Source: a virus. Taken from it: a stretch of DNA of 24,680 nt. The notes under the pieces were generated by a model. The model did no database searches. It was not told the DNA's origin and was given only the letters and a program-made list of their open reading frames with translations. Shown piece by piece: positions 4,857 through 21,971 of this stretch. The DNA lies in IMG/VR virus record IMGVR_UViG_3300037184_000185, positions 1 through 24,680 of that record, one strand, 5' to 3'. Positions within the stretch are counted from its first letter, which is position 1; the number at the start of each line of letters is the position of its first letter. Made by a program: the position numbers and the translations under genes.

Positions 4857-5315
4857 ATGGTAAAAGGTAATACAAAACGATTCTGTAAAAAAGGCCACGA
4901 TTTTAAAATTGTTGAACGTGATGCCGAGGGACGTTGTAAGCCTTGTAGAGAGGCATATATTAAATCAGACAAGTATCAAACATCTCATAAAGCAGTTACT
5001 AAAAAATGGCAGGAAGATAATAGGGCTTATAAGAGTGAACAAGTTAGAGAATGGCAATACAGGAAGAAATTTGGTATTACTATACAAGAGTATAACGTGA
5101 TGTTAGCTGAACAGAATAATAGTTGTGCTGTTTGTGAAAGATCACAAACTGATTTTAAGAGAAAGTTTGCCGTAGATCATGATCACAAAACAGGTAAAGT
5201 TAGAAGGTTACTCTGCGATAATTGTAATCATGCTCTTGGGATGGTTAATGACAATCCCATTATATTACAGAAATTAATTTTATACTTGGAGAAATACAAT
5301 CGAATTCCTGCTTAA
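4857..5315 (+). CDS. HNH endonuclease, recombination endonuclease VII-like, with N-terminal zinc module
   Basis: 152 residues. The N-terminus carries a C-x3-H...C-x2-C module (C10, H14, C27, C30), which recurs in the other two HNH genes of this window and is common at the N-terminus of phage HNH proteins. The C-terminal half has the endonuclease VII pattern: C90-x2-C93, the D-H-D-H catalytic segment at 107-110, then C120-x2-C123-N-H. The paired cysteines would bind a structural zinc and the D-H-D-H segment the catalytic metal. Endonuclease VII-like enzymes cut branched DNA in T4, but stand-alone copies between structural genes usually behave as homing nucleases. The gene starts 2 bases after the upstream stop and has no clear SD, so translation is probably coupled to that gene. 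Confidence 0.9.
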   Translation: MVKGNTKRFCKKGHDFKIVERDAEGRCKPCREAYIKSDKYQTSHKAVTKKWQEDNRAYKSEQVREWQYRKKFGITIQEYNVMLAEQNNSCAVCERSQTDFKRKFAVDHDHKTGKVRRLLCDNCNHALGMVNDNPIILQKLILYLEKYNRIPA

Positions 5316-7560: not shown

Positions 7561-8124
7561 ATGGCTAGTAAACCAAGAAAAGTTTGTAAAAAAGGGCATA
7601 ATAAAGATATTACTGGTCGAACTTCTGATGGGCATTGTTTACTATGCAGAATTGATTATCATTCTAAACCACATATATCTACACAACAATTTTGTATACA
7701 GGGACATGATACTTTTGTTATGGGCAGAGATAAGCATGGAAGTTGTGCAGAATGTAAAAGACTTACATATATTCCACATCCTAGACAACCAAAGCAATTT
7801 TGTCCTAAAGGGCATGATACCTTTATAATGGGTAGAGATAAATGGAGCCAATGTAAAGAATGCAACAGATTTGAACAGAGAGAAAGGTTGCATAAACATA
7901 GAGTCTTATTAGACAATGCAAAAAATAAACCATGTGCTGATTGTGGAGTTAAATATGATCCTTGGGTTATGGATTTTGATCATTTAAGAGACAAAAAATT
8001 TACAATTAGTGGTAAAGCATCTCAAGGGTATTCTTTAGAGAAACTTCTGGCTGAGATTGCTAAATGTGACGTAGTATGCTCTAACTGTCATAGAATTAGG
8101 ACGCACAAAAGAAGGATAGGTTAA
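7561..8124 (+). CDS. HNH homing endonuclease with three tandem zinc modules
   Basis: 187 residues. The first 105 residues contain three copies of a C-x3-H...C-x2-C module: C9/H13/C26/C29, C45/H49/C62/C65 and C81/H85/C98/C101, about 36 residues apart. Copies two and three share the core G-H-D-T-F-[VI]-M-G-R-D-K. These are likely DNA-reading zinc knuckles. The HNH nuclease follows: C125-x2-C128, D140-H141, then C173-x2-C176-H177. The gene starts 2 bases after the terminase stop, in the same junction sequence (TATAATTATGG) found before the HNH gene at 4857. It has no good SD, so coupled translation is likely. It is probably a selfish element placed next to a conserved gene. Confidence 0.92.
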   Translation: MASKPRKVCKKGHNKDITGRTSDGHCLLCRIDYHSKPHISTQQFCIQGHDTFVMGRDKHGSCAECKRLTYIPHPRQPKQFCPKGHDTFIMGRDKWSQCKECNRFEQRERLHKHRVLLDNAKNKPCADCGVKYDPWVMDFDHLRDKKFTISGKASQGYSLEKLLAEIAKCDVVCSNCHRIRTHKRRIG

Positions 8125-16300: not shown

Positions 16301-16770
16301 AAGATGAATTAGGTATGAAGGAATCAGCTCTTAAAGTTAGAGAAGCAGCAGTTACCGCAAAAGAAGCATCGATTAAAGCTGCAGAACAGGCTAAGAAATT
16401 TGCTTCAGTTCTTCAAGCTCGTTCAGAACGTTGCCGCAAAGTTGTAGCTACTATGGTTGAAAAAGACGCACTTCAGATGAACAAAGAAGTTTATGAGAGT
16501 GAGCTTAAACAAGGCACTTACCTATTAGATGCTCAGAAGAAAGCTTTTGAACATGCTATTAAGGCAAAACAGGCAGAGCTACTAGCTATGGATGACAATG
16601 CACTTCTAGCCACAGAGAAAGTAGTCGCAGATCTTAAGGCTCCTTCATCTGTTAATATTAAGAGAGCAAATCGTATTTTTGTTTCTCCATCATTTGGTGA
16701 AGAGCTTTCCGAAGACGCACAGCTTAAGAAAATCTTTGACACATTCGGGACTAAAAACAGGCCGCAATAA
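13369..16770 (+). CDS. Prohead maturation protease fused to a scaffold-like C-terminus
   Basis: 1133 residues. Residues 45-240 look like a HK97/herpes-type prohead protease: L-D-H99-N as the probable catalytic His, N-S-T-S154-M-G as the probable Ser motif, and F-N-E-D-S-I-V-G-V-P-A-D-P-S-A closing the domain. A zinc knuckle (C157, C164, C167, C179, H181) follows the Ser motif. The remainder (about 250-1133) is mostly low-complexity Lys/Glu/Ala/Pro sequence, with a second Cys/His cluster (C368, C371, C388, C393, H396), imperfect repeats at 15415-15740 and a C-terminal coiled coil (about 985-1095). This resembles a scaffold that the protease would later degrade. Two in-frame internal ATGs have strong SDs (14251 and 15397). 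It stands directly before the capsid genes and has AAAGGA upstream of its start. Confidence 0.85.
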   Translation: MSLIKLGSHLRILKTAAVAEDLLVDKPMEETAPKTKILEPKNSDFLYYRARAISAGDQGPLGKDGSRGFNFNGNMDYFPRKELEASYESFVGRNIFLDHNSESSLYSIGKIIDAVPVDDKETGEFYIELVGKIDRTLHPEICRKIETGELNSTSMGCSVDESICSVCGNVLHSDADEKCDHMGMNLGKQFAAEMNFPEYNIKQGDMVPCFSINKGIVFNEDSIVGVPADPSAVIKTVLSNMKSRISKKASLTKEEQLDLAAQMEKLFAKLDDSTKIQLKADFCGICPPVEKESSMADKSVVPNEETKKILNKISALEMEQLESYVNMKSKKANETANKEVVAASVEKEESFLSKIVAKVKVALAAAKCERCEDLLSEKDPSHEYDPDCAGSLCAKHEKEFLDKKKASVTAKFTEDKNNVLDSTWSVYEGDKCALEASLRDIWGSSFETMPFADQKWATSAAYGKEAVARYKKEGIEKLADAWDVVNKLSKTAADPKLGPSGTRATPTTGLSNKEHSYPTQPKFEKPGQDAGQKGPAAPAHADVKVDYTVAKPEGTYKAAPAAPKPMTMKTDYSEPKADAVGKEVKTTPKNPEEKKTEKSEKDVETGYVAAGTEAMEAEEKGGKKEDKKASLISWGSLTPKAQNFIKTAAKGYIASGMKNAEAVAKAHSEFTAQEITMKKQAADKPVESVDGSTLPDGTKEMGDKPEEAVKGTTLPGGAAPGSAPETSAKGDVEHKTTDLTKKPDEAVKGTTTPADHIPNTQKSDESSKGTTFPDSKKEIGDKADSAVKQAAKSESSAPIEAVQDKPALSKATAGDTPESAREGGDLKKDPKDIESVNKKAATEMPLPEDKDPMESMKPEAPLDEKPLDLPLDGPKVDEPAAEVSAFDTAENVEIGEGYTANKDKESKEIIVMKDGQEVKRLPDGFGKDMAVVLPLMKAVLGLPPEEAKPEVPGAMPPVEKPMEEPKVEEHPAVEEAHEDELGMKESALKVREAAVTAKEASIKAAEQAKKFASVLQARSERCRKVVATMVEKDALQMNKEVYESELKQGTYLLDAQKKAFEHAIKAKQAELLAMDDNALLATEKVVADLKAPSSVNIKRANRIFVSPSFGEELSEDAQLKKIFDTFGTKNRPQ
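14237..14253 (+). promoter_or_regulatory. Internal SD and in-frame start codon for a nested scaffold product
   Basis: AAAAGGAG lies 6 bases before an ATG at 14251, in frame with the protease/scaffold gene (codon 295). It sits just after the protease domain and its linker. Initiation here would give an 839-residue protein (14251-16770) without protease activity, as Nu3 is made inside lambda gene C. Confidence 0.6.
14251..16770 (+). CDS. Putative nested scaffold protein from an internal start
   Basis: This shares frame and stop with the 1133-residue protease/scaffold gene and would begin M-A-D-K-S-V-V. The product would contain the second Cys/His cluster, the Pro/Thr repeat region and the C-terminal coiled coil, but not the protease domain. 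Nested scaffold genes that share the 3' part of the protease gene are established for lambda C/Nu3 and for herpesvirus UL26/UL26.5. Here the claim rests on the SD quality, the position at the domain boundary and the scaffold-like content; the start could instead be a relic of an ancient gene fusion. Confidence 0.5.
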   Translation: MADKSVVPNEETKKILNKISALEMEQLESYVNMKSKKANETANKEVVAASVEKEESFLSKIVAKVKVALAAAKCERCEDLLSEKDPSHEYDPDCAGSLCAKHEKEFLDKKKASVTAKFTEDKNNVLDSTWSVYEGDKCALEASLRDIWGSSFETMPFADQKWATSAAYGKEAVARYKKEGIEKLADAWDVVNKLSKTAADPKLGPSGTRATPTTGLSNKEHSYPTQPKFEKPGQDAGQKGPAAPAHADVKVDYTVAKPEGTYKAAPAAPKPMTMKTDYSEPKADAVGKEVKTTPKNPEEKKTEKSEKDVETGYVAAGTEAMEAEEKGGKKEDKKASLISWGSLTPKAQNFIKTAAKGYIASGMKNAEAVAKAHSEFTAQEITMKKQAADKPVESVDGSTLPDGTKEMGDKPEEAVKGTTLPGGAAPGSAPETSAKGDVEHKTTDLTKKPDEAVKGTTTPADHIPNTQKSDESSKGTTFPDSKKEIGDKADSAVKQAAKSESSAPIEAVQDKPALSKATAGDTPESAREGGDLKKDPKDIESVNKKAATEMPLPEDKDPMESMKPEAPLDEKPLDLPLDGPKVDEPAAEVSAFDTAENVEIGEGYTANKDKESKEIIVMKDGQEVKRLPDGFGKDMAVVLPLMKAVLGLPPEEAKPEVPGAMPPVEKPMEEPKVEEHPAVEEAHEDELGMKESALKVREAAVTAKEASIKAAEQAKKFASVLQARSERCRKVVATMVEKDALQMNKEVYESELKQGTYLLDAQKKAFEHAIKAKQAELLAMDDNALLATEKVVADLKAPSSVNIKRANRIFVSPSFGEELSEDAQLKKIFDTFGTKNRPQ
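15386..15399 (+). promoter_or_regulatory. Second internal SD and in-frame start codon in the scaffold region
   Basis: AGGAG (15386-15390) lies 6 bases before the ATG at 15397, in frame (codon 677, M-K-K-Q-A-A-D-K). A product from here would be 457 residues (15397-16770), containing the repeat region and the coiled coil. It may be a second nested start or a fusion relic. Confidence 0.45.
15415..15740 (+). repeat. Imperfect repeats in the scaffold region
   Basis: Four degenerate copies of a unit reading roughly D-[EK]-[AS]-[VS]-[DK]-G-[ST]-T-x-P occur between residues about 683 and 790, separated by charged spacers. The copies are related at DNA level as well (gcagtaaagggtacaact occurs twice, near 15490 and 15605). 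They suggest growth of the disordered linker by duplication. Confidence 0.7.
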
Positions 16771-17333
16771 TGGGTAGACCTAAAGCACAATTTTGTAAGC
16801 ATGGGCATGACACAAATATTTGTGGAAGAGATTCTACTAATGCTTGTAATGACTGTAAACGAGATTGGACTTTAGATAATCCTGAATATGCTAAAGAATA
16901 TCATGAAAAAAATAGAGATGTTCAATTAGAGAAACAGAAAAAATATCGAGAAGAGAATAAAGATATTCTAGCTATTAAGCAGAAAGAATTTTGGGATGCA
17001 CATAGAGATTTAAAAAGGCAAAAAGATAAAGAGTATTACGAGAAAAATAAAATAAGACTTTTAGCTCTTATGAGAGAATGGGCTAAAACCCATAGAGATA
17101 TTACAAGGGCTTTAAAAATAAAATCTCAGACAAATCGTAATCTTCGTGTAGTAGCTTGGACAGATTGGGATAGAATTAAAGAGATTTATGCTAATTGCCC
17201 AGAAGGAATGGAAGTTGATCATATCATTCCTCTTCAAGGTAAAAATGTGTCAGGACTTCATGTTAGTTGGAATTTGCAATATTTAATGCCAGCAGTAAAT
17301 AGATCAAAAGGTAATAAAATAGATTTGTTATAA
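16770..17333 (+). CDS. HNH homing endonuclease with zinc module and helical repeats
   Basis: 187 residues; the ATG shares a base with the scaffold stop (TAATG). The N-terminal module C9/H13/C26/C29 matches those of the HNH genes at 4857 and 7561. Residues 39-113 contain five 15-residue repeats of the form [KR]-[EK]-[YFW]-x3-[NH]-[RK], a charged helical spacer. The C-terminal nuclease has E-V-D150-H151-I-I-P-L, W-N168-L-Q-Y-L, and A-V-N177-R-S-K-G-N-K, the usual HNH signature. It ends about 200 bases before a gene split by a group I intron that has no endonuclease of its own, so it may drive that intron's homing. It also fits the local habit of HNH genes starting at the stop of a structural gene. 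Confidence 0.92.
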   Translation: MGRPKAQFCKHGHDTNICGRDSTNACNDCKRDWTLDNPEYAKEYHEKNRDVQLEKQKKYREENKDILAIKQKEFWDAHRDLKRQKDKEYYEKNKIRLLALMREWAKTHRDITRALKIKSQTNRNLRVVAWTDWDRIKEIYANCPEGMEVDHIIPLQGKNVSGLHVSWNLQYLMPAVNRSKGNKIDLL

Positions 17334-17533
17334 AAACATGCATGTAACAAATTATTCTACATGTGGGAATGCTAGAGTAATCAAGTTTGAGTTATATAGA
17401 TTCGTTTAAAAGCTTAAAATCAAAGATTTCCCACAAATAAGTGGGCCTTTAAAAAAGTAGCCTACCAAGATCAGATAAGAATAGACCATATTAAAAAGTA
17501 GTATTCACAAAATAAAAATTAAGGAGTCACACA
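17334..17533 (+). other. Non-coding leader between the HNH gene and the split decoration gene
   Basis: No convincing gene on either strand. It holds a CCCAC/GTGGG hairpin with a 6-base loop (17430-17445) that could end the HNH transcript, although no clear U run follows. It ends with AAGGAG at 17521-17526, the SD of the split gene. No good promoter was found. Confidence 0.5.
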
Positions 17534-18226
17534 ATGGCTAAACAGTTCGAATGGCCATTTAAAATCTCTTCTCAATATCTGGAAACACTTTAGAGATCTA
17601 AAGTCAATCAGAGGGAACCTGAAAAGGACCCGCAGAGACTAACCGAAGAGACACTGTAAAAAGTGATGTGATAGTCCGACCAACTTAGTGATAAGTTGAC
17701 CTACCAGAAATGCGTAGGCGTTCTCATAAAAAGAGAATAGTAACAATAAAAACAGATTCGACAAATTAAAGAAGTTAATCGTTCCGTCGCATACCCTATT
17801 GCCTCTGGAAACATCGTCGGTGGAAATTTGCTACAACTAAACGCAGCTGGTCAGCTCTTGCCTTGGGTTCACGCCCAGACAGCAGGACAGCCTTTTGGTC
17901 TCGCAATTGAATCCAACGTATTTTTCCCTCTTCAGCCAGCCAATGGCGAAGTAGCAGGTCAGGGTTTTGACTACACCAACTTCAATCGTGGTGGACTTGA
18001 ATCCGTTTACAACAACGGTGGAGATTTCGTCCTTTATGATGATGGTCGTGGTTATCCATACGCTCGTGGCACAGTAACATACGCAATCAATGCACCAGTC
18101 TATGCTTCCGCAGTTACAGATGGTCTTCTAGACTCTGCAGCTACAAGCACAGTGGTAGTTGGTTATGTAGTTGCTTTCGATGTTGCCACAGATCCAACGT
18201 TCCTGGAAATCAAATCGATTATCTAA
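17534..18226 (+). CDS. Probable capsid decoration/head protein, split by a group I intron: join(17534..17539,17756..18226)
   Basis: Spliced, the gene encodes 158 residues starting M-A-I-R-Q-I-K-E-V-N. Exon 1 is only the ATG and one Ala codon, with its SD (AAGGAG, 17521-17526). Exon 2 begins at 17756, where the frame continues to the stop at 18224-18226. Unspliced RNA would yield a 19-residue peptide ending at the TAG at 17591. The protein is Gly/Ala/Val-rich and beta-like without Cys or membrane segments. Small proteins of this kind directly before the major capsid gene are commonly head decoration or stabilisation proteins; that role is inferred. Codon choice (many C-ending codons) resembles the capsid gene and differs from the large unknown genes, which fits high expression. 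Confidence 0.75.
17540..17755 (+). ncRNA. Group I self-splicing intron, 216 nt, no internal endonuclease gene
   Basis: All core helices can be drawn. P1: exon AAUGGCU (17533-17539) with GGCCAUU (17553-17559), with the required U.G wobble at the splice site. P10: UCGAAU (17547-17552) with the first bases of exon 2, AUUCGA (17756-17761). P3: UCUCUUC (17565-17571) with GAAGAGA (17645-17651). P4: UCUG (17578-17581) with CAGA (17609-17612). P5: ACUUUAGA/UCUAAAGU (17587-17604). P6: GGG/CCC with a CCU-GAAA-AGG extension (17613-17631). P7: GACUA (17637-17641) with UAGUC (17672-17676). P8: CACU/AGUG (17652-17665). P9: CAACUUA-GUGA-UAAGUUG (17681-17698). Two further 3' hairpins follow (17700-17718 and 17720-17738). 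The intron ends in G (17755). P1 includes the start codon. Confidence 0.9.
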
Positions 18227-18299: not shown

Positions 18300-19256
18300 A
18301 TGAACGACAAGCTAAACGTAGAAGCCTCCATGGAAGTTCTTTCAAGCGCACAGGTTGAGGAAAAGCTCACCCGCCTGATGAATTCTCCAGGTGGACTTCA
18401 AAAAATTGCACAGCAGATGCTCTCGCCCCTAAAGCGCGAACTTCTGTACGAAGGCCGCATTCGCCAGCTCTTCCAGACCTATAAACTAGCTCTCGGAGAA
18501 GAAGCAGTGTTCGACGCTGATGTTGATGTACCAGCCGCAAGCATCTCAGTCGAAGGTCTTCCAGCACAGCTCGAAGTTCTAGCAGATCGTATTCGCGTAG
18601 AAACGTCACCTATTTCTACTCGCCCTATGATTCGTTGGAATGAATCAAACTTCCGCAAATATGACGTTCTGAACAGAACACAGGAACGTGCAAAAGCATC
18701 AATCATGCTACAGGAAGATACTCGTGGTTATAATTTGATCAACTTCGCAAGTGGTTTGACAAATCAGACACCCGCAGCATCTCTCGCTGGTACGACTGCT
18801 GCAACAAACAACCCATCAGTGATTGCTAACGGATCAACTGGTTTGTCCATGTATACCTTGGCTACCGCAATCGTAACTCTAAGCTCCAAGCTTCTAGTTG
18901 CAAGCAAGCTATACATCAACCCACTAACCCGCAGAGACTTGCTGTTGTTCAACAATGCTCCCAGTGGTAATGGTGGACTTGGTATCTTCGCTCCTAACTT
19001 CCAGGACACAGCTCTAAAGGCTGGTCGCGTAGGTGGAATCATGGGCGTTGACGTTCTAGAGTCTGTCGTTGTTCCTTCAGCAGCCTGTTTCGTCTTGGCT
19101 CCAGCCGATTACCTCGGCGTGTTGGCAATTCGTACAGATCTGTCAGTTGAGACAATGAAAGATGTAAACAAGATGGCAGATGTTTTTGCAATCTGGGAGG
19201 ATCTTGGGTTTCTTATTCGTTACGCTAAAGGAATTGTTAAAGTTACACTTCCATAA
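18300..19256 (+). CDS. Major capsid protein (HK97 fold)
   Basis: 318 residues with a strong SD (AAAGGAGA) before the ATG. It lacks Cys clusters and shows the pattern of HK97-type shell proteins: a short helical N-terminus (about 1-60), an E-loop/P-domain section with P-M-I-R-W-N-E-S-N-F-R-K-Y-D (about 107-125), and an A-domain with the central S-K-L-Y-I-N-P-L-T-R-R-D-L and V-L-A-P-A-D-Y-L-G-V-L segments. Its position after the protease/scaffold and decoration genes is standard. N-terminal E-A9-S10-M is a candidate cleavage site if the protease trims the shell protein. Codon use is richer in C-ending codons than in neighbouring genes, as expected for the most abundant protein. A hairpin terminator follows the stop. 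Confidence 0.88.
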   Translation: MNDKLNVEASMEVLSSAQVEEKLTRLMNSPGGLQKIAQQMLSPLKRELLYEGRIRQLFQTYKLALGEEAVFDADVDVPAASISVEGLPAQLEVLADRIRVETSPISTRPMIRWNESNFRKYDVLNRTQERAKASIMLQEDTRGYNLINFASGLTNQTPAASLAGTTAATNNPSVIANGSTGLSMYTLATAIVTLSSKLLVASKLYINPLTRRDLLLFNNAPSGNGGLGIFAPNFQDTALKAGRVGGIMGVDVLESVVVPSAACFVLAPADYLGVLAIRTDLSVETMKDVNKMADVFAIWEDLGFLIRYAKGIVKVTLP

Positions 19257-19372: not shown

Positions 19373-20128
19373 ATGGAAAAGATAAGTGGCATTTATTCGA
19401 TTGTACATAGTGAAAGTTGCAAAGTTTATGTTGGTTCTGCTGTTAATCTTTATAAACGTGAGCATGAGCATAGATTTGATCTATATAATAATTGTCATGA
19501 TAATCAACGTTTACAAAATGCTTGGAATAAATATGGGGAAGCAGCTTTTAAATTTGAAGTTTTAGAGGTAGTTCAAGATCCTTCTAATCTATTAATTAAA
19601 GAGCAATGGTGGATGGATAAGTTACAAAGTTATGACAGGGATAAAGGATTTAATATTCGTAAAGTGGCTGAGAGTAATTTTGGTTTAAAACATACACCTG
19701 AAACTCTTGAAAAGATTCGTCAAGGTAGCATCGGTAAGAATAAGGATAAAGTAGGAGATAAGAATCATTTCTTTGGCAAGAAACATACAGAAGAATCTCT
19801 TGCAAAAATGAGGACTCCTAGATCAGAAGAAGTTAAGCAAAAATTTAGTATTGCTGCACAAAAACGTTGGGAAGGTCATACAGAAGAAAAAATTTGCCCA
19901 AATTGTCAGATATCCTTTAATACACGATTAAGTGACGATAACGATTTTTGTAGTAAGAAATGTAATAATAGATATCATGGTAGATTAAGAACACAAAATA
20001 ATACAATTGAAAAGGTTTGTTTACTTTGTCCTAATACGTTTAGAACTTCAATTTCAGAGAATAAAAAGTATTGCAGTCGTAAATGTTGGGCTGTATCAAT
20101 GAAAGGTAATAAGAATCAATCTAAATAG
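19373..20128 (+). CDS. GIY-YIG homing endonuclease with NUMOD3-type and zinc-finger DNA-binding modules
   Basis: 251 residues. The N-terminal nuclease has G6-I-Y, Y19-V-G, R29 in Y-K-R-E-H and the metal-binding E77 (I-K-E-Q-W-W). Two NUMOD3-like modules follow (F-G-L-K-H-T-P-E-T about 103-111; F-G-K-K-H-T-E-E-S about 134-142), known DNA-contacting elements in phage homing enzymes. Two treble-clef-like zinc fingers close the protein: C175/C178/C193/C197 and C216/C219/C234/C238. It is free-standing, between the capsid terminator and the tRNA genes. No SD precedes the ATG, and the promoter at 19337-19365 would place the RNA 5' end at or beside it, so the mRNA is probably leaderless. Confidence 0.95.
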   Translation: MEKISGIYSIVHSESCKVYVGSAVNLYKREHEHRFDLYNNCHDNQRLQNAWNKYGEAAFKFEVLEVVQDPSNLLIKEQWWMDKLQSYDRDKGFNIRKVAESNFGLKHTPETLEKIRQGSIGKNKDKVGDKNHFFGKKHTEESLAKMRTPRSEEVKQKFSIAAQKRWEGHTEEKICPNCQISFNTRLSDDNDFCSKKCNNRYHGRLRTQNNTIEKVCLLCPNTFRTSISENKKYCSRKCWAVSMKGNKNQSK

Positions 20129-20138
20129 TTTGCTTAGT

Positions 20139-20212
20139 GGGCTTATAGTATAACAGGATTATGCCACACTTGCAATGTGGTGATACGTGTGCGACTCACG
20201 TTAGGTCCACCA
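20139..20212 (+). tRNA. tRNA-Ala (anticodon TGC)
   Basis: 74 bases with the CCA encoded. Acceptor GGGCTTA/TAGGTCC, discriminator A; anticodon stem CCACA/TGTGG with loop CTTGCAA (TGC); T stem ACGTG/CACGT with loop TGCGACT. The D stem is weak. T-loop position 55 is G rather than the near-universal T. The anticodon call is firm because the stem is perfect and U33 is present. TTTGCTT (20129-20135) and AAGCAAA (20212-20218) flank the gene as an inverted repeat. Confidence 0.85.
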
Positions 20213-20233: not shown

Positions 20234-20309
20234 TCTGGGGTAACTCAATTGGCAGAGTGCTCCCCTGTTAAGGGAATGGTTGCAGGTTCGACTCCTGCCC
20301 CTAGAGCCA
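20234..20309 (+). tRNA. tRNA-Asn (anticodon GTT)
   Basis: 76 bases with the CCA encoded and discriminator G, as usual for tRNA-Asn. Acceptor TCTGGGG/CCCTAGA, D stem ACTC/GAGT with a GG-containing loop, anticodon loop CTGTTAA, T stem GCAGG/CCTGC with the standard loop TTCGACT. One C.A mismatch at 27-43. Confidence 0.95.
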
Positions 20310-21896: not shown

Positions 21897-21971
21897 CGCG
21901 GATTGGAGCAGTAGCAGCTCGTGTGCCTCATAAGCACAAGGTCAGTGGTGCAATTCCACTATCCGCAACCA
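21897..21971 (+). tRNA. tRNA-Met (anticodon CAT), initiator-like
   Basis: 75 bases with CCA encoded and discriminator A. Acceptor CGCGGAT/ATCCGCA leaves C1 facing A72 unpaired, the hallmark of bacterial initiator tRNA. D stem GAGC/GCTC has the A11-T24 pair also typical of initiators. Anticodon stem TGTGC/GCACA with loop CTCATAA; T stem AGTGG/CCACT with loop TGCAATT. It lacks the three consecutive G-C pairs of initiator anticodon stems, the GG of the D loop and T55. The 5' and 3' ends closely resemble E. coli tRNA-fMet. Confidence 0.85.

Follow-up and report, generated by a model that had tools for sequence, protein, structure and literature searches.

A compact, ORF-less group I intron of 216 nt interrupts a probable capsid decoration gene two codons after its start in a large uncultured phage. 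The intron is probably self-splicing and has probably moved with a free-standing HNH endonuclease gene lying about 200 bp upstream (collaborative homing), its insertion site having brought the AUG start codon of the interrupted gene into the P1 helix. The window, that is the whole stretch of DNA analysed, is a virus record of 24,680 bases, and the parts of the intron locus, from the HNH gene to the major capsid gene, are on its + strand.

The window encodes a terminase, a portal, a head-maturation-protease-like protein and an HK97-fold capsid protein, and its relatives are found on contigs of up to 180 kb. The intron-bearing gene sits between the protease-like ORF and the major capsid gene (18300-19256; phrog_2522, NF042927), directly upstream of the latter. 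Its exon 1 contributes ATG GCT (Met-Ala; 17534-17539, from alignment with empty sites) and exon 2 extends from 17756 to 18226, giving a predicted spliced product of 158 aa beginning MAIRQIKEVN. Since the gene adjoins the capsid gene, the product is likely a decoration protein. Family profile searches gave no family match for it, and individual homologues weakly touched head-decoration families. The structure model was only moderate (pLDDT 68). Its best PDB matches fell short of significance; they were phage capsid chains and included several decoration or stabilising proteins. Related proteins were found neither in cultured phages nor in the genome collection searched, and homology to the decoration protein gp26 of phage G was considered and not supported. 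The probable capsid gene named in a preliminary description of this DNA, made from its letters alone, is thus best read as probably capsid-associated, given its place beside the major capsid gene and the weak fold matches to decoration proteins.

The boundaries of the intron were established from intron-free relatives. Searching IMG/VR proteins with the predicted spliced product returned 30 homologous loci, some of them on near-duplicate contigs. At 29 of these the gene start reads AAGGAG...ATGGC(A/T)ATT... (MAI) with no insert, and the 30th, on contig L002, carries an identical intron, so that the intron is present in 2 of about 31 loci. The 216 nt (17540-17755) of the window, like their counterpart in L002, lie exactly between the second and third codons: exon 1 ends with U17539, the last base of the intron is G, and exon 2 starts at 17756. 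Because the empty sites themselves show the junction 17539/17756, it is fixed without any folding model. Both carriers have U immediately before the junction; among the intron-free loci, 12 have GCT and 17 have GCA as second codon, and GCT supplies the U needed for the U.G pair at the splice site. A deeper profile search of viral contigs recovered the same 30 contigs and no further intron-bearing alleles, the exact intron core sequence occurred elsewhere only in the L002 contig, and comparison of the intron DNA with cultured phages gave short, weak matches only. The intron in the window is real. The preliminary description had proposed an ORF-less compact group I intron at this place; its coordinates for the Shine-Dalgarno sequence, AUG, end of exon 1, 216-nt intron and start of exon 2 all hold, and the empty sites, the folds and the match to Rfam family RF00028 bear the proposal out. 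The search for intron-free homologues reading MAIRQIKEVN, which that description had named as a check, turned out in favour of the intron.

The predicted RNA structure fits a group I ribozyme throughout. The P1 hairpin (17533-17559) consists of 7 bp between AAUGGCU (17533-17539) and GGCCAUU (17553-17559), with U17539.G17553 at the 5′ splice site. P10 (5 bp) comes after P1 without a gap, its 5′ strand CGAAU (17548-17552) pairing with AUUCG of exon 2 (17756-17760); both helices arose at the junction in 11 of 200,000 shuffles of the first 60 nt of the intron. P3 (17565-17571/17645-17651) encloses P4 (17578-17582/17608-17612), P5 (17587-17593/17598-17604), and P6 and P6a (17613-17631), the whole domain covering 17565-17651. 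A pseudoknotted P7 spans 17637-17676 (GACUA, 17637-17641, with UAGUC, 17672-17676), and is joined by P8 (17652-17655/17662-17665) and, within 17681-17738, by P9 (17681-17698) and two further 3′ hairpins (17700-17718 and 17720-17738). The minimum free energy is -60.7 kcal/mol (z = -4.6, with 0 of 200 shuffles equally good), and the corresponding fold contains P1, P3, P4, P5, P6, P6a, P8, P9 and the two further 3′ hairpins.

A narrow scan of 421 nt matched RF00028 with 34.8 bits (E 2.4e-7), below the Rfam gathering score of 50 bits, which is a curation threshold for automatic listing and not a biological criterion. The covariance-model check suggested in the preliminary description was positive in the narrow scan, while the Rfam scan of the whole window did not find the intron. 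Default Rfam thresholds thus miss small phage introns, with the consequence that gene starts in phages of this kind will be mis-annotated; here the mechanically called ORF starts at an internal TTG. A covariance model built from the core of the window intron gave 63 matches in 85 sources, most of which were phage contigs retrieved with a pattern for the group I core. Among 57 distinct related phage introns, all 36 core pairs vary on both sides, and 92.6% of cells are paired, compared with 54.3% after shuffling and 34-44% after sliding, figures that are inflated as the alignment was fitted to the structure. Covariation is seen in P3-P6, P8 and P9; P7 forms in nearly all rows and hardly varies, in part because the loci had been picked by its sequence. 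Judged from sequence, P1 with its U.G pair, P10, the P3-P9 core with pseudoknotted P7, the terminal G and the covariation are all those of a group I ribozyme, and the helices of the preliminary description were recovered by the fold, the shuffle test, the RF00028 alignment and the covariation. Splicing would follow the ordinary two-step guanosine pathway, the U.G pair of P1 setting the 5′ site and P10 with the terminal G setting the 3′ site, and would restore the 158-aa reading frame. Three other contigs (L045, L089 and L109) each showed two group I intron cores within one region, separated by only about 200 nt.

The preliminary description had overlooked a linked endonuclease gene and the evidence for its joint transfer with the intron. 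The gene (16770-17333) matches phrog_1035 (E 4e-11) and phrog_26577 (3e-10), with no match in Pfam or NCBIfam, and an HNH-like motif, DHIIPL...GLHVSWNLQYLMPAVNRSKGNK, was read in its sequence. The catalytic motif and the family match are features of a homing-type HNH/EndoVII endonuclease, and the gene, which is free-standing, likely encodes the homing enzyme responsible for moving the intron. The ATG of the gene and the stop codon before it overlap (TAATG), and its protein is 100% identical in L002. An ORF-less intron and an adjacent free-standing endonuclease gene are the features of a collaborative pair.

Comparison with L002 revealed a block of 958 bp (16806-17763) without a single difference. 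It takes in almost all of the HNH gene and the 200 bp of intergenic DNA after it, then exon 1 with the complete intron, and closes 8 nt into exon 2. The flanks of the block differ from L002 by about 10-15%, the adjoining 100-bp bins mostly holding 5-30 differences, and exon 2 is 91% identical between the two carriers. For the intergenic DNA the L019/L021 lineage is the nearest (0.76), ranking first in 498 of 500 bootstraps; exon 2 of the window is closest to L003, L004 and L006 (0.85-0.86), and the upstream ORF to L006. Because the affinities of intergenic DNA and flanks differ, and because the block is identical to that of L002, it came recently from another lineage in at least one of the two phages. 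On this sequence comparison the block is the footprint of a recent joint transfer of intron and HNH gene, with one event on record. Since there are two intron-bearing contigs only, with one identical block common to both, one event may account for it; an assembly chimera is a less likely source.

Under collaborative homing, the intron would travel with the HNH gene in place of an endonuclease of its own. In a relative infecting the same cell, the HNH enzyme would cut the decoration gene at its intron-free start, and the HNH gene, the intergenic DNA and the intron would then be copied together during repair. The insertion site is the conserved gene start AUGGC(U)/AUUCG, and for that reason the start codon falls in P1; its placement is thus most likely a consequence of the endonuclease target. 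The block would then offer a natural example, legible in genome sequences, of a free-standing endonuclease and an ORF-less intron homing together.

Alternatively, the HNH gene and the intron may be neighbours by chance and the block a product of ordinary homologous recombination in which the endonuclease had no part. Phage genomes are mosaic, and L007 and L026 carry HNH homologues (58-61% aa identity) at the same place with no intron, which shows that gene and intron are separable. However, the block is bounded by the beginning of the HNH gene on one side and by a point 8 nt beyond the intron on the other, as homing predicts, and the intergenic DNA was imported from a different lineage, and we regard chance association as unlikely, although it keeps some weight. 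That homing-type genes recur in this intergenic slot, the HNH homologues in L007 and L026 and a GIY-YIG gene in L017, speaks for collaborative homing.

The neighbouring capsid gene of the relatives is crowded with introns and homing-type ORFs, which also favours collaborative homing. In L026 (5540-8250 of a 180-kb contig) the major capsid gene consists of five exons and four group I introns, one of them with an ORF, and one exon is left with just nine residues, VNKMADVFA. In L030 (6515-6790) and L031 (6520-6800) the final codons of the capsid gene are interrupted by a group I intron, which starts with its own near-copy of exon 2 (SIVKIVVS* versus GIVKIVVS*), so unspliced and spliced RNA alike would yield a complete capsid protein. 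The capsid intron of L027 (5660-6760) contains a 311-codon ORF that has KYGV repeats and resembles the intron ORF of L026 in style. The L027 ORF looks like a Vsr/EDxHD-type homing endonuclease, the type being judged by eye only. The structural module of the window is likewise dense in homing-type genes, with an EndoVII family gene at 4857-5315, an HNH-like zinc-motif protein at 7561-8124 (by eye and weak similarity) and a GIY-YIG gene with NUMOD3 at 19373-20128. Three tRNA genes (20139-20209, 20234-20306 and 21897-21968) are also located among the structural genes.

Group I introns of bacteria and phages must fold while ribosomes trail the polymerase. An intron that pairs the AUG of its gene in P1 would meet this problem at the earliest point, before translation starts, and the two-codon exon 1 allows a clean test of competition between ribosome and ribozyme. 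The Shine-Dalgarno sequence AAGGAG (17521-17526) lies 7 nt before the AUG (17534-17536) and is kept in the intronless relatives. As had been proposed, the AUG is base-paired within P1, with a predicted unpaired probability of 0.02, and unspliced RNA encodes a 19-aa peptide, MAKQFEWPFKISSQYLETL* (17534-17593), whose stop codon (17591-17593) is inside P5. Because this ORF stops in P5, a ribosome initiating on unspliced RNA would disrupt P1, P3 and P4, and competition between ribosome binding and splicing is plausible, though folding speaks for it weakly. Most group I introns carry a stop codon just inside the intron, limiting ribosome entry (PMC3073962). In the window intron the stop is 51 nt in, so shielding of the AUG by P1 could reasonably serve as an alternative protection: held in P1 until splicing, the AUG may keep ribosomes off the ribozyme.

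The further claim that splicing frees the AUG was not borne out by folding, which predicts accessibilities of 0.02 in unspliced RNA, 0.07-0.36 in spliced RNA depending on the length folded, and 0.01-0.83 in intronless relatives. In these models P1 covers the AUG, and a need of splicing to expose it is not supported. It is rather unlikely, on our reading, that the AUG-containing P1 is a built-in gate by which efficient initiation occurs only after splicing, ribosomes spare the ribozyme, and splicing sets the level or timing of the decoration protein. More doubtful still is that the intron is a translational switch, in which P1 hides the AUG, a ribosome melts P1 and blocks splicing, and the balance determines the amount and timing of decoration protein. 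The paired AUG (0.02), the good Shine-Dalgarno spacing and the course of the 19-aa ORF through P1, P3 and P4 into P5 would suit such a switch, but the AUG is of low to moderate accessibility after splicing too and ranges widely in intronless relatives, the gene evidently does well without an intron in all but 2 of about 31 loci, Rfam scans of the window and of the narrow region found no aptamer or other element beside the intron that could act as a sensor, and the block transfer points to a mobile parasite. With the HNH gene linked and jointly transferred, mobility would explain the placement better than translational control.

It is highly improbable that the insertion is degenerate or unable to splice and has ruined the gene, leaving translation to resume in exon 2 at TTG 17828: splicing is deduced from sequence and a 132-aa ORF can start there, but P1, P10, the core helices and the terminal G show no damage, exon 2 keeps an open frame and is 91% identical between the carriers, and the N-terminus that would be removed is conserved in all relatives.

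The arrangement appears to be rare, judging from two surveys of limited reach. None of the 57 phage introns other than that of the window has a Shine-Dalgarno sequence and AUG in P1 with a closed upstream frame; L078 and L050, taken up as further candidates, were rejected since their frame is open upstream, which places them inside genes. A search for SD-ATGGCT-P1 gave at least 79 other loci, none with a credible group I core nearby, and a search for the same arrangement found only L002 among the matches listed. No described case was found in the literature searched, which is weak evidence of absence. L080 has another phage intron (around 7690-7960) that follows a gene start at a distance of about 14 codons, estimated by eye, and there P1 does not include the AUG.

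Among known systems, the capsid and tail introns of Cluster J mycobacteriophages also interrupt virion structural genes, were recognised via intron-free relatives and splice efficiently; unlike the window intron, the Cluster J capsid intron contains an endonuclease ORF and sits in the interior of its gene (PMC3706429). The c-di-GMP allosteric ribozyme of Clostridioides difficile (reviewed in PMC3984707) is likewise a group I intron beside a translation start. In that system the splice site is governed by an aptamer and the ribosome binding site comes together through splicing, whereas Rfam scans found no aptamer upstream of the window intron, and both Shine-Dalgarno sequence and AUG are in exon 1. 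T4 mobE, which acts in trans homing of the nrdB intron, resembles the window gene as a free-standing HNH-type gene with a UAAUG overlap serving an intron without an active endonuclease; the nrdB intron holds a defunct endonuclease gene and the window intron none (PMC2988022). In collaborative homing, a free-standing endonuclease cuts the insertion site of an intron and repair carries both (PMC3984707, PMC6083498, PMC10448857), as for the psbA intron and F-CphI of cyanophage S-PM2 (PMC6083498) and for ICP1 terL with an adjacent T5orf172 gene (PMC10448857). These cases and introns of T3/T7-like phages share with the window an ORF-less intron in an important gene and an endonuclease gene beside the first exon, and ICP1 terL also has a short N-terminal exon; in the window, where the cutting by HNH is putative, exon 1 codes for two residues only and the AUG lies in P1.
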